From: Pochonia chlamydosporia 170
Taxonomy: Eukaryota; Ascomycota; Sordariomycetes; Hypocreales; Clavicipitaceae
Reading direction: 5' to 3'
NCBI RefSeq assembly: GCF_001653235.2
Contig: NC_035790.1
Coordinates: 2,418,001-2,482,000, forward strand
Length of the DNA: 64,000 nt
The translations under genes and the position numbers were made by a program. Below are positions 34,620 through 41,713 of this stretch, in pieces. The notes under the pieces were generated by a model. It had not been told where the DNA came from. It searched no databases and worked only from the letters and a program-made list of their open reading frames with translations. Positions within the stretch are counted from its first letter, which is position 1. Every line of letters begins with the position of its first letter.

Positions 34620-36135
34620 ATGGCCCGGTCCAGGAACGAAAGCAGCCACGCGCAGCAAGATACTGCCAATGGCTCTGATACAGCCCTCCCGTCTGAAATC
34701 ACTCTCCTGACACTCAACTGCTGGGGTCTCCTCCATATATCAGCTCTTCGCACGCCTCGCCTCGCGGAAATAGGCAGACAAATTGCTGCTCTCGAACCAA
34801 CTCCTCACATAGTATGTCTGCAAGAATGCTGGGTCCAGGACGATTACCGTGCCATCCGTGATGCCACCCGAGGCATTCTGCCCCATGGAAAATTCTATCA
34901 TAGCGGCGCGTTTGGCGGTGGATTGGCCATTTTAAGTCGGTGGCCAATTGAGGAGAGTTCCATGCATCCGTACACCCTGAATGGACGGCCCACTGCTTTC
35001 TGGAGAGGCGATTGGTATGTTGGAAAGGGAGTTGCAACTGCCAAGGTGAGATATGGCCCAGGTAGGAGGGACGTTGTTGAAGTGTTTAACACCCACGTAA
35101 GTGATCCCAGGTTCTACCAACTCATTTCTTTACATCGTTTAGCATATTAACAGTCTTGTCTGTGAAAAGACTCATGCTCCCTATGAAAGCGGTCCCAATG
35201 ATTCCTATCTCTGCCATCGGACCGCTCAAGCATGGGAAATTGCCAAACTCGTCCGCGGTGCCACTGATCGCGGACACTTGGTCGTCGCTCTAGGAGACTT
35301 CAACATGATTCCCCTCTCCCTCGCCTACCGCATAATCACCTCCGGCGCTCCAATTCGTGATACATGGCGTGTCCTCCACCCAGATAGCTCCATCGGGGCA
35401 TCGGACCAGGCCGAAGAGAAAGCCCGTGGTTTACCTGTCCCAACAGCAGAGTACAACAAAACCATCAATGGGGCTGCCAGTGACACAGTTTATAATACGT
35501 GGCGTTGGACCAAAGAAGAGCAAAAGAAGCTCAAACACAACCCTTGCCCCGTGGATCCGAATACAAAAGATCCCAAGGGCAAACGAATAGACTACGTCTT
35601 CGCATCAACTGGCGACGTTTCGGATGGAGTAGGTTGGGTCGTGAAATCCGCCGCTGTAGAACTCGCTGGTCGTCATCCGGAGCTGAATTGCTCTCTTTCC
35701 GATCACTTTGGTGTTCGAGCTACTTTGCAGCGCCACACGCTTTCCGCCTCTGCTGCCAACAAGCCCACTGAGCAGGACTTGCAGCTTCGCTATAATGCAG
35801 AACACGCCAGCGCGCTCACGCTCTCCGACTATGATGAAATACTGGCCATGACGCACAAGTATACTATGAGGGAGAGGAAGCAGCGGTACTGGCGTGGTAT
35901 TCACTTCTACGCTGCACTGCTTATCTGGGCTGGCTGCCTGGTAGCTGTTTGGTTCAGTCCTCGGAACTTCGTTTCATTTCTCCTCATGCTGCTGGCAAGT
36001 CTTGGCCTGACTGTCGGTGTCATTGATGGGCTTCTTTCACTGCTCTTCTTCTCTAGGGAGATCCGAGGTCTCAAGGAATTTGAGTGGGAGGTTCAAAATG
36101 CAAGGGAAGCCGCCGTGCGCGAGGGCTCAACTTAG
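34620..36135 (+). CDS. ISC1: Inositol phosphosphingolipid phospholipase C / neutral sphingomyelinase
   Basis: Two exons, 34620-35096 and 35170-36135, 480 residues. It belongs to the endonuclease/exonuclease/phosphatase fold: TLNCWGL (about 30), the metal-binding Glu in CLQECWV, GGGLAILSRWPI, VFNTH-THAPYE over the junction, HRTAQAWEIAKL, GDFNMIP and the catalytic SDHFGVR near 360. Two hydrophobic stretches at the C-terminus (about 412-432 and 438-465) form the membrane hairpin typical of Isc1 and nSMase2-like enzymes. The enzyme cleaves inositol phosphosphingolipids to ceramides at ER or mitochondrial membranes. A second in-frame acceptor at 35142 (TTTAG) would insert nine residues before THAPYE; I chose 35169 because it gives the conserved spacing. 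All catalytic motifs are intact. Confidence 0.93.
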
Positions 36136-36328: not shown

Positions 36329-39110
36329 CTAAAGCTCGGCCATCTCATCTTCTCCTAGATTTGGCGTCATGTATCCTCCATGACGCATCCGACGCCAACT
36401 ATACCCCATGAAGGCTGTCTTTTTCCTGACCTCCAAGGCTGGCGCTTTGGTGTCTTGGTCTCGCAACAGTATGTCTCGAGGTCGCTTTCGTTCCTTTCTG
36501 CCATACATGCGAATAAATGTTTTCAGAGTCTTTCGCTCTTCAAACGTTATCCCAAATATCTTGTCAATTCTCCGATCGGCACTCCGCAATCGTGCCGAAT
36601 CGTACGGCGTCGCAATCAGGTCGATTGCCAAATTCTGAATCAACTGCCGGCTATCTCGAAGCAGCCATCGAGTATGGTCTGGTGTTGGGTCAAATGGGTC
36701 ATCATCCAAGGAAACCATAGGTTCAGTAAAAGGATCAGACTCATCAAAATAGTGAGTGTCATCAAGGCTGGTTATGCGTGGTACAAATGGTGGCGTGATG
36801 GACTGCACGCGATCCCATGGAAAATTCTTGAACCAACGGTGAGACTTGATATCCTCCGCATCGTCTGGAAAGACGTGTCGGCCGAAGACGTCCTTGTATC
36901 GCCTGTTGTCAATCTGGCAACGATCTTTCATTTGGTACCGTCGCGAGCAAAGCCGAAGCTCTCTATCCTGAATCAATCGATATATCAAATCCTTGCATTT
37001 ATCGCTGACTGGCGGTCGATGTGGGAACGAGAAGGTCTTTTTATGGTCCTATAAACAGCAACATTAGAAAGTTCTCAACCTCTCATGGCCAATCTTGGGA
37101 CAAATTACCAATATGTTGCTCTTGGTCTGTTTTCGACCATCGTCCGCGAAGAAAGGGGTATGGCCGTAGAGGCATTCATACAGGATGATGCCAATGCTCT
37201 ACTAATCGCATCTTCCGTCGTACTCAGAGCCCTTACAAGCTCTAATCACTTCTGGTGCCATGTATTGGCTGGTTCCGACGACTGAATTCGCCGAATCGCG
37301 GTTGCCGCATCTGTTTCTCTAGCCCAGGAGGCCAGGCAAGCTATTGTCGTCCCCTGCAACTTTTCTTTCATGGCGGTCCAAAATGTCCTTCATCGCTTGT
37401 AGCCAAGGTATCTGCGAGCTAATATTGAAAGTCTTCTTCTGATCTTCTGCATCGCCATCCACACGGATGCCCAATTTTCCCAGCAAGGAGTATCGTTGGC
37501 AGTTGTAGTAAGATAGGTCATGCGACCAGTGACCATCAAACGCGAGCCCAAAGTCGGATATCTTTAAATGTCCGGATGCCGATATCAAAAAATTGTCAGG
37601 TTTTATGTCACGATGGATGAACTTCAGTCGGTGTGCCTCCTCAACAGCTAGAATCATCTCGGCAACATAGAACCTCGCCATCGGCTCAGGAAGCATGTTC
37701 TCTCGTATCAGCAGACCCAAGAAATCTCCCCCAGGCATATACTCCATTACCAAGTAAAGATTGGTCAAATCGTCGAAACTGGCTACGAGTGGGACAATCC
37801 TACATGGACGAGTCAGCAGAAGGAACCAGGCTGATAATTCAGAAGAGCAAAAGGTACACACCAATTGGAGCCTTCTGAGGCAACGAGAAAGTCCCTCTCT
37901 GCCCTCAAGTGACCTTCTTGGCAGCTTCGAAGCATTTCTGACTTTCGTATAACCTTCATTGCGAAAAGTTGCTGCGGGAAGGTGTGTGCCTCGTTGGCCC
38001 TTTCGCGAACCAGCTTGACCACGCCAAAGCTACCCCGACCCAGAACCTTCAAGCATTCAAAGTTCTCCGCATACGACAGGTCCTGACGATCTAGAGAAAG
38101 GAGGGACTTTGTTTTCATCACGCGTGTTTCTCTTGAATGACAAGCCTCTTGGTAGTAGAATGACCGCCTGATGACATCCTTTTCATCCAGATCCAAGTGT
38201 GGACTGTAGTAGAGTTGAGATTCCAGATATTGCTGACGCGTAGTCCGAGTATTGGGCCGATTCAGAAGACTGTTAAAGTAGGTTTCCAGATATACCTTTG
38301 CGGCTGCTGCCTTTTCAACCGTAAGAATCGTGGGCTGTGGTTGATAGAAGCCCTCGTCAATTGTCTGCAACGTGCCACCATCCGGACTTGACCTGGACCA
38401 TGGGTGCCTACGGCTGCGACGTCGCTTTGGACTCGTTTTGTTAGAGGTGGAATCAGAAATTCGAGAGTCCATCGATGTCTTTCGAGTTGAAATGTTTCCA
38501 ACAATGGATGATTTGTCCGTGTACAGCGACGAGATCGAACTGACGGCATCCCCGAGGGGAAGTGTAGGAGAACTCGGCATGACTTGAAGAGATGTTCGCC
38601 GTCGTAGAAGAGAACCGCGTAGAACTACCGTGGAATTGGATGGAGTTGGAAAGTTATCAAATCCGAGTCTCTTGGCAAGAGCTTTTGGCGACAGGCCCTT
38701 GGCTCTGCGCAGAGGAGTTGGCGTTGCACTCCCTCCAGTCCCCTGGTTGCCGAATCGTCCGTCCAAGTCTGGAGATGATGAGCGCCGTTGACTCCATTCA
38801 AGTACATTCGACGCCTCAGAGCCTAGTTTGCAAAGGTTAGTCATGATTGCCATCATCAGATTACTGTGAGGAAGGGTCAGCGGGATGAATATGAATACCT
38901 ACAGTTGTACGTGGTTCGCCGAATCGCCCGAATGGCACTTCGTATCTCAGACAGGACCTTGACACTGCCAGGCCAAGCCTTGGCTGGATTCAACTCTGCT
39001 TGGTCGTCGTCTTTTCGGTCATCCGTCTTTGACTGCGGTACGATCGATTTCCTGGCTCCTGGATCTAGCACTGGGCAGCTACTGCGTTTGCTGAGTAGCT
39101 TCGGCACCAT
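36329..39110 (-). CDS. PUK1: PUK1-like AGC/NDR-type protein kinase with three in-frame TAG codons
   Basis: Four exons: 39110-38903, 38822-37862, 37799-37109 and 37048-36329; 860 codons including the final stop. Splice phases agree at every junction. Kinase landmarks: GRGSFG at 331-336, the ATP-binding Lys in AMK (359), IHRDIKPDN with catalytic Asp 454, DFG at 472-474, an NDR-type insert, VVGTSQYMAPE to 573, then DGRCD followed by TAG-TAG (codons 589-590), SIGIILYECLYGHTPF, and a C-terminal AGC extension (WFKNFPWDRVQS onward). Another TAG is codon 550. No other stop, shift or missing key residue occurs, so this is not ordinary decay. In Fusarium graminearum the orthologous perithecium-specific kinase PUK1 has tandem UAG-UAG in the same place, edited A-to-I to UGG-UGG; I infer the same here. 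Unedited mRNA would give a 549-residue protein lacking the activation segment and C-lobe. The long N-terminus (1-320) is basic and Ser-rich. Confidence 0.85.
37199..37204 (-). other. Tandem in-frame UAG-UAG, predicted A-to-I recoding sites
   Basis: Codons 589-590 of the kinase, between GRCD and SIGIILYE. Kinases of this class have Asp-Trp-Trp-Ser here (PKA D220-W221-W222, helix F), so UGG-UGG is expected. The sense RNA around them folds as GAUGC, loop GAUUAGUAGA, GCAUU: five pairs (one G-U) with both UAGs in a 10-nt loop. Edited adenosines would be CDS positions 1766 and 1769. Confidence 0.75.
37319..37321 (-). other. Third in-frame UAG, possible recoding site
   Basis: Codon 550, context PGLLG-stop-RNRCGNRD, just before VVGTSQYMAPE. 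A Trp before RN is plausible for this kinase family. There is no consensus donor nearby to splice it out. A weak CUG/CAG stem with an 11-nt loop surrounds it. Confidence 0.45.
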
Positions 39111-40007: not shown

Positions 40008-41713
40008 CTATTTGATCTCGAGGAGCTTGACATCGAAGGTCAATTGACTGTTGGCGGGAATACCGGGCATGCCACGAGAGCCGTATCCCAAATGAGCAGG
40101 AATAGTCAATCGTCGCTCACCACCGATGGCCATACCGACAACACCGACGTCCCAGCCCTTGATGACCTGGCCTTTGCCAACCTTGAATGAGAAAGGCTTG
40201 CCCTTCTTATTGGCTATTTCTACATGTTAGTATAGCTGCACGGACAAATGACGGAAAACTGATGTCGAGGGACTACATACCGTCAAACTGCTGGCCGTTG
40301 GCAAGCTTGCCAATGTATCGGACACCAACAGTGTCGCCGCTCTTGACAGTGCGGCCCTTTCCAATGGTGCGGTCGTCAAGGGTAACGCCCTGAACAACCT
40401 TGACGCCAGTGGCAGGTTTGCCAGCCTGCTTACCAGAGCCAGTAGGGCCCTGCTCGAGGTTCTTGGCAAACTGAACCTTCTTGTCCTTCTTGCCCTCCTC
40501 AGCGGCAACAGCCTCGCCCTTGTTGTTCTTGAGCTTCTTCTGCTGTTTCTTAGAATCGGAGGCCTTGGCAATCATCTCGTCAAGACCCTCAGCTTCCTCG
40601 GCGGCACGCTTGTTCTTGCCCTTCTTGGACTCAACCAGCTTGGGGGCTTCATCCTCCTCGGAGTCGACCTCAGTGACGCGGGGGTCCTCAACATCATCGA
40701 GCTCGTCACTCTCGTCGTCGCTAGCATCCTCGCCCATAGCATAGTCGAGCTCCTCGGGGTCAAAGTCGTAGTCCTCCTCGTCATCCTCGCTGTCGTAGTC
40801 GTCCTCGTCGTCCATGATGTAGTTGCCAGTGAGGTAAACAGTGTGAGTACCAGTGACGACAAAGAAGACCTTTTCGCCGTGATTGACAGTGATGTCAAGG
40901 GGCTGCTGGTAGTTCTACACGAGTTGGTTAGCATAATGGGGCGAGAAAAGTATTTTGGCATGGTGAAAGTAAATTGCACTTACTCGCTCAGTGTCAAGAG
41001 TGCAAACCACGAAGTTCTCGAGGTCAGCACCGTCGTCACTGTCATCATCATCCTCATCATCTTCCTCCTCATCATCTTCCTCGTCTTCGTCATCCTCCTC
41101 AACAGCCTTGGCCTTGCCTTTGCCCTTGGCCTTGCTCTTAACACCATTGGGCTTGGCATCCTCCATATCCTCGTCCTCATCCTCGTCCTCATCGTCCTGC
41201 GTAGCCTCAAGAAGCTTCTTGATGGCAGCAGCCTGCTTTTGCTTCTTAGCCTTGGCGGGGTCGCTGGGGCCACCATTGGCTTCCTCCTCCTCGTCCTCAT
41301 CGTCATCATCGTCAGAAGCAGCCAGCAAAGCCTTCATGTACTCGTCATCAATCTCGTCGTCCTCGTCCTCGTCATCAAGCCCAGGGAAGGCGCGCTTGAC
41401 AAGTCGCAGGGTAGCGCGAGGAACGGCGGGGACGTTGCCCTCCTCATCAGCCTCGGGCTCCTCAGTAGGGTCCAAGGCAGCCATGGTGATGCGGAACTAG
41501 GTTGATAGCTAGGTTAGTTGATTTGCGACAGAGAAAGTCGGGCAGCGAAAAATTGCGCCAATTGCAACCAAGACCGTCGTAGTGTCGAATTGAGGCATCA
41601 AGAAATCGCGAAGGAATCGTACTCACAGAAGCAGGGAAGTCCATGGAAGCCGGGATCAAGATCTCGCCAGGCGGGACCTCAAGGCCGTAAACGGGACCAG
41701 GAACGGCAGACAT
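40008..41713 (-). CDS. Nucleolar-type FKBP peptidyl-prolyl isomerase (Fpr3/Fpr4-like)
   Basis: Four exons: 41713-41627, 41496-40984, 40914-40281 and 40213-40008, 479 residues. The N-terminal nucleoplasmin-like domain (about 1-180) starts [16 protein letters not shown] and includes [10 protein letters not shown] and [29 protein letters not shown]. It is interrupted by long Asp/Glu runs with a Lys-rich stretch that should contact histones or act as nuclear targeting. After a second acidic and Lys-rich linker comes a C-terminal FKBP domain (about 370-479): [53 protein letters not shown] and [11 protein letters not shown]. The FK506-pocket residues (Tyr, Phe, Trp, Tyr) are visible. Relatives are histone chaperones and proline isomerases of the nucleolus (Fpr4 acts on histone H3). 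Function is inferred from this domain order. Confidence 0.95.

Follow-up and report, generated by a model that had tools for sequence, protein, structure and literature searches.

A kinase gene on the minus strand of the 64,000-nucleotide stretch of Pochonia chlamydosporia 170 analysed here (the window) is interrupted by three in-frame stop codons, which raises the question of how an active kinase could be made from it. The spliced-frame translation comprises 859 codons ahead of the normal stop, distributed over four exons. Exon 1 (38903..39110) starts with the ATG at 39110 and ends at a GTAGGT donor, and its spliced frame continues into exon 2 (37862..38822, donor GTGTGT), which encodes the N-terminal region and the kinase N-lobe. 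Exon 3 (37109..37799, donor GTAATT) runs from the catalytic loop to helix F and further and carries all three premature stops. Exon 4 (36329..37048) encodes the remaining C-lobe and the C-terminal tail up to the normal stop, TAG, at 36331-36329. The three introns measure 80, 62 and 60 nt and, by inspection, all contain a CTRAY branch site; the GC content of the locus is 48%.

A preliminary description of the locus had placed a tandem TAG TAG at codons 589-590, between GRCD and SIGIILYEC. Both stops were confirmed in the spliced minus-strand frame, at the first (37202..37204, A at 37203) and second (37199..37201, A at 37200) Trp of the helix-F DWW, and the spliced frame also reproduced the four-exon structure and codon numbering of that description. 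Its claim that the frame is otherwise continuous did not hold. A third in-frame UAG is found at codon 550 (37319..37321, minus strand, A at 37320), the invariant Trp of LLGWRN, directly outside the interval originally described. As the codon numbers given there fit the same frame, the earlier claim overlooked this codon. The three UAGs lie between the DFG motif and helix F of the kinase. All three premature stops are TAG, and no further premature stop and no frameshift are present in the 859 codons.

The kinase gene is preceded by a gene for an FKBP-type prolyl isomerase with a nucleoplasmin-like domain (window 40011-41496, minus strand). A Stachybotrys model (P0015) contains a kinase and an FKBP domain in one protein, which suggests that the order of the two genes is conserved. 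Downstream, an ORF with an endonuclease/exonuclease/phosphatase-family domain (35143-36132, plus strand) is convergent with the kinase gene.

The conceptual protein contains a Pkinase domain of the NDR/AGC type, and among solved structures yeast Cbk1 is the best match to its sequence. A structure predicted for a relative, P0014 (mean pLDDT 78.7), most resembles Cbk1 and NDR1; the region around its W355, which corresponds to W550, is of low confidence (block mean 49) and uninformative on the role of that Trp. Sequence identity reaches 80% over residues 330-720 among the best 120 of 3072 matches. Residues 1-549 are 85% identical to M. acridum and 81% to M. rileyi (best 120 of 237 matches), and among the matches listed they are 97% identical to a metagenome ORF over 59% of the query. 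Fusarium models of the PUK1 group (e.g. P0092) occur among the listed matches, none of which is labelled PUK1. The kinase is single copy, the remaining matches in the 44.2-Mb genome being at most 51% identical (best candidates scored). Homology and copy number thus bear out the PUK1 identity proposed earlier: judged by its sequence, the gene is the PUK1 (Neurospora stk-21) ortholog of a Metarhizium-like clavicipitaceous fungus, an NDR/Cbk1-type AGC kinase.

We then asked which residues the stops replace, using an alignment of the kinase protein with 120 homologs (the best 120 of 3072 matches). At column 550, all 116 relatives with a residue have W, the other 4 being gaps. Column 589 holds W in 57 of the 60 relatives with a residue and Y in 3, with 60 gaps, while column 590 holds 69 W, 33 other letters and 18 gaps and is muddled by models that skip the stretch. 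Three random stops would all be TAG at Trp codons with a probability of about 5e-4 when the three TAGs are taken as given, 6e-5 if any one-step stop is considered and 4e-3 if only C>T/G>A changes are allowed. As a local control, we searched the genome for Pkinase domains (139 matches) and fetched those containing a TAG, which gave 13 other kinases. A loosely defined intron, called by script, covers the TAG in 11 of the 13; in two of the control kinases, L037 and L047, the TAG looks by eye like an intron end or intron. None of these 13 has, by eye, a TAG at the helix-F Asp-Trp-Trp. The kinase gene presents in-frame UAGs at conserved Trp codons with an intact downstream frame, as PSC A-to-I targets do.

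The sequence beyond the stops is conserved as well. Past all three stops, residues 591-859 share 80% and 85% identity with two Metarhizium models, and five Claviceps models reach 71-73%. The corresponding values are 71-74% and 58-64% for the first 228 residues, and 92% and 79-84% for the kinase part 321-549. The Metarhizium models, P0004 (3 member sequences) and P0006 (22), pass directly from HERK, which precedes Trp 550, to SIGII, as would be expected of annotation if Metarhizium also stops at 550, which is indirect evidence for such a stop. The Claviceps models (P0001, P0002, P0003, P0005 and P0007) keep W550 and skip only Trp-Trp, and Liu et al. report that both tandem A's are G in C. paspali (PMC4817773). 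Taken together, the Metarhizium jump and the W550 of Claviceps suggest that the stop at 550 has been gained or lost more than once, as it seems from these models.

The genome also appears to encode the editing machinery. A DUF726 gene on contig C1 (3083255-3084343, minus strand) contains VGMVRAEKAG; the diagnostic Met-Val pair precedes the Ser of GYSLG by 31 residues, the same spacing as between M500-V501 and the nucleophile S531 of FgAme1 (PMC11087585); the two remaining DUF726 genes have other residues at the Met-Val position. A protein with HAEFMAI and EPCVMC is encoded on C8 (around 818459-818950, minus strand), and another with HCVLRAI, in which Val replaces the catalytic Glu, on C1 (around 7621144-7621602, minus strand). 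The same replacement is described for FgTad3 (PMC11156358). Assigned by domain and motif rather than by tree, these proteins resemble Ame1, Tad2 and a degenerate Tad3, respectively. Searches with RID- and SPO22-type domains, both named as PSC-edited in F. graminearum, yielded matches free of in-frame stops and so add no support for editing. At C3:2449687-2449941 (plus strand; loci L054 and L058) lies an HMG box with IPRPPNAYILYRKERH, which we take from this motif to be MAT1-2-1-like, and a genome search run without a positive control gave no match to a MAT alpha box. The strain may be of one mating type in a heterothallic species.

A recoding reading is supported by the homology and single copy of the gene, by the conserved sequence past its stops and by the editing-machinery genes: the three UAGs (550, 589 and 590) are very probably subject to A-to-I premature-stop correction in sexual tissue. 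There, a Tad2-Tad3-Ame1 deaminase would turn the A of each UAG into inosine, and the inosine-bearing codon would be read as UGG, so that Trp is inserted and an active kinase of 859 residues results. Elsewhere, translation would end before codon 550, leaving a 549-residue fragment that lacks the C-lobe and should be inactive. The restriction of the active kinase to sexual tissue is inferred by carrying over what is described in Fusarium and Neurospora, expression almost confined to perithecia being the pattern expected of PUK1/STK-21 kinases. Editing at one tandem site is seen in more than 99% of the PUK1 reads from F. graminearum perithecia, with 90% of these edited at both, and a PUK1 allele with TAA TAA added behind the sites did not complement the mutant (PMC4817773).

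Judged by flanking bases, editing would be favoured at sites 550 and 589 more than at site 590. Scored against the bases preferred in F. graminearum (-2 C/U, -1 U, +1 A/G, +2 G, +3 A/G, +4 A/G; PMC9600606), sites 550 and 589 each match 5 of 6 positions and site 590 matches 3 of 6, while 21 of the 694 A's in the kinase CDS score 5 or 6.

The preliminary description had proposed a hairpin, GAUGC-GAUUAGUAGA-GCAUU (37193..37212, minus strand), around the tandem UAGs. The stem with its 10-nt loop can indeed form, but it has the minimum energy only when folding is limited to 31 nt with site 589 at the centre. Longer pieces prefer a GAUGC/GCAUC stem with a larger loop or, for site 590 at +/-30 nt, a different fold in which that A is in a stem. 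With flanks of five sizes, site 589 was in a predicted hairpin loop in 5 of 5 cases, site 590 in 4 of 5 and site 550 in none, being always in a stem; by way of background, 30 of the 91 UA sites of the CDS fall in predicted hairpin loops at +/-30 nt. The fold around the tandem sites was no better than that of shuffled sequences, with z of -0.51 for 56 nt (57 of 200 shuffles at least as good) and -1.35 for 36 nt (22 of 200), and the surroundings of site 550 gave +0.46 (130 of 200). As shuffles fold comparably, we set the hairpin aside as weak evidence for editing. Since more than 62% of editing sites in F. graminearum lie in predicted hairpin loops (PMC9600606), such loops are a preference and not a rule.

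To see where public gene models of related kinases end, we combined three homology searches (the best 120 each of 3072, 237 and 515 matches), which together listed 284 different proteins. Of these, 164 run through the kinase domain, 6 have no coverage of the catalytic loop, and in 114 the protein or its alignment breaks off within or beyond the catalytic core, model ends upstream of about residue 480 being outside the classification. A model was considered alignable to its last residue if at least 5 of its 8 final residues were identical to a reference; 54 of the 114 passed and 60 were dropped. The next residue was read from 60 references holding CDWWS/CDYWS for late ends, and from 152 references including holders of WRN/WRS/WRH for early ends. 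A first run had drawn on every non-truncated model and on the window protein with W in place of its stops. It assigned other residues to several Trp-Trp ends and was repeated with the references just named; many of the first references themselves skip the Trp-Trp stretch, which accounts for the odd residues.

The next residue is W for 37 of the 54 alignable truncated models among the best matches listed. The binomial probability of 1e-47 for this treats related species as independent and is not to be taken literally. The truncation points are W589 (18 models), W590 (6), W550 (6), a Trp near 522 (6) and a Trp near 539 (1), with mixed votes for P0200 (a tie between one W and one Q) and P0205 (4 of 7 W). 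The choice of WRN/WRS/WRH references favours W at 550, and the first run, made without that choice, already found WRN for every one of the six W550 models in its six best relatives. These models come from Ustilaginoidea virens, Conoideocrella luteorostrata, Epichloe festucae, Ophiocordyceps australis (two) and Annulohypoxylon maeteangense. The models ending before W522 are four Apiospora clusters, one metagenome relative of them and Gnomoniopsis smithogilvyi. The Apiospora-type models P0192, P0193, P0195, P0196 and P0201 all stop before the Trp equivalent to W522, which is possibly a further recoding site in Apiospora. Among the 17 ends not followed by W, eight lie a few residues past ILYE/ILFE and look like unspliced read-through into an intron. 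A further six (P0110, P0224, P0243, P0256, P0260 and P0262) have tails that aligned poorly or by chance, leaving three otherwise unexplained: P0252, where the next residue is mostly Y, and P0162 and P0208, where it is M where called. The comparison was made on proteins alone. It indicates that many deposited PUK1 models are probably wrong.

Four PUK1-type ORFs from metagenome or unnamed sources (P0211, P0270, P0247 and P0258; fragments) likewise end exactly before Trp 589. As Leotiomycetes are among the nearest relatives listed for them, stops at this Trp may extend beyond Sordariomycetes.

Several observations count against editing as the explanation: the position of site 550 in a predicted stem, folds no better than those of shuffles, the match of site 590 to only 3 of 6 preferred bases, the lack of in-frame stops in the matched RID- and SPO22-type domains, and the 17 of 54 model ends that do not precede a Trp. 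We considered how the stops could otherwise be accommodated. They might be taken out by alternative splicing, as a 42-nt piece with UAG 550 (37360-37319, GTTGCA...CTAG) and a 51-nt piece with the tandem stops (GTGATT...TAGTAG), both in frame by inspection. Many annotated models do skip the Trp-Trp stretch, two Metarhizium models skip everything from HERK to SIGII, and the intron of control kinase L047 seems by eye to start with GTTGGT, so that GTT donors may be used in this genome. Both editing and alternative splicing of the same stop have been reported for F. graminearum BUD14 (PMC11156358). However, neither piece has, by inspection, the CTRAY branch site found in the gene's three introns. 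Splicing out the 51-nt piece would cost the protein the end of its activation segment together with the helix-F Asp-Trp-Trp, and splicing out the 42-nt piece an invariant Trp. Moreover, the same predicted intron in F. graminearum proved by cDNA to be an annotation error (PMC4817773). We consider splicing improbable.

Slightly less probable still is that the gene is a pseudogene in decay, carried by a fungus in which sex is rare. Three stops in frame would fit decay, as would the single mating-type marker found, the HMG box, which is equally expected of one strain of a heterothallic species. Against this, every stop is a TAG at a conserved Trp codon, the 859 codons hold no other stop or frameshift, the splice sites are intact, the sequence is conserved downstream of the stops, and, judged by public gene models, stops stand at the same Trp codons in other genera. 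Ribosomal read-through, a UAG suppressor tRNA or a sequencing or assembly error is very improbable, with nothing specific in its favour. Two tandem stops plus a third make read-through inefficient, and errors would not hit three Trp codons here and the same codons in the models of other species. At the Fusarium and Neurospora tandem sites, the cause is editing (PMC4817773).

The editing mechanism that we prefer is itself known, as are PUK1 recoding and its sites in Fusarium and Neurospora, the enzyme complex, and the way in which models are misannotated (PMC4817773, PMC11156358, PMC11087585, PMC9600606, PMC5381528, PMC11169179, PMC7306014). The open-access literature searched gave no mention of a third UAG at Trp 550, of stops there in other genera or of truncation at the Apiospora Trp. 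The third site and the shifting, Trp-directed stops thus appear new in the literature searched, and earlier notice of them is possible.

It is debated whether fungal premature-stop editing is an adaptation or a tolerated accident. The lack of conservation of individual PUK1 sites has been taken as consistent with neutral evolution (PMC5381528). The model ends suggest that sites move yet mostly hit Trp codons of one stretch of one gene, and a maintained lock would be at least as consistent with this pattern. We tentatively raise the possibility, which we hold to be somewhat less than even, that PUK1 is under a selected stop-codon lock, in which the stopped Trp between DFG and helix F differs by lineage and turns over while the locked state persists. 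The gene described here would then carry a triple lock, in which an active kinase requires three edits on one mRNA, a steep AND-gate that would keep leaky kinase activity from arising outside sexual tissue. If different Trp codons of the same gene are repeatedly put to this use, a nonsense mutation that is simply neutral and tolerated would be a less likely account. Trp 550 provides a new site, with named species, at which the adaptive and neutral views become testable.

Several known systems compare with this kinase. AMD1, RID, AMA1, BUD14 and CHE1 likewise undergo UAG to UGG premature-stop correction by A-to-I editing, but they are unrelated to the kinase, and CHE1 is edited in hyphae (PMC11156358, PMC11169179). 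Cbk1/NDR kinases (PDB 4LQS, 5NCL, 6BXI) are its top sequence and fold matches, whereas PUK1 is said to have no distinct ortholog in budding and fission yeast (PMC4817773). The closest counterpart is F. graminearum PUK1 (FGRRES_01058; UA1831G-UA1834G), the same kinase with the same tandem UAG-UAG for the helix-F Trp-Trp, whose relatives are misannotated in the same manner (PMC4817773). Both tandem sites are edited in F. graminearum perithecia, and one each in the other two species, the first in Neurospora crassa stk-21 (NCU03242) and the second in F. verticillioides FVEG_01191 (PMC4817773). The latter two are described with one stop each, compared with three here (PMC4817773). The earlier proposal that this species keeps the Fusarium switch is thus supported at the tandem UAG-UAG, which stands at the edited position, and has to be widened at the third: F. 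graminearum PUK1 is described with the two tandem sites only (PMC4817773), whereas the additional UAG at the invariant Trp of LLGWRN would make the switch of P. chlamydosporia an extended one.
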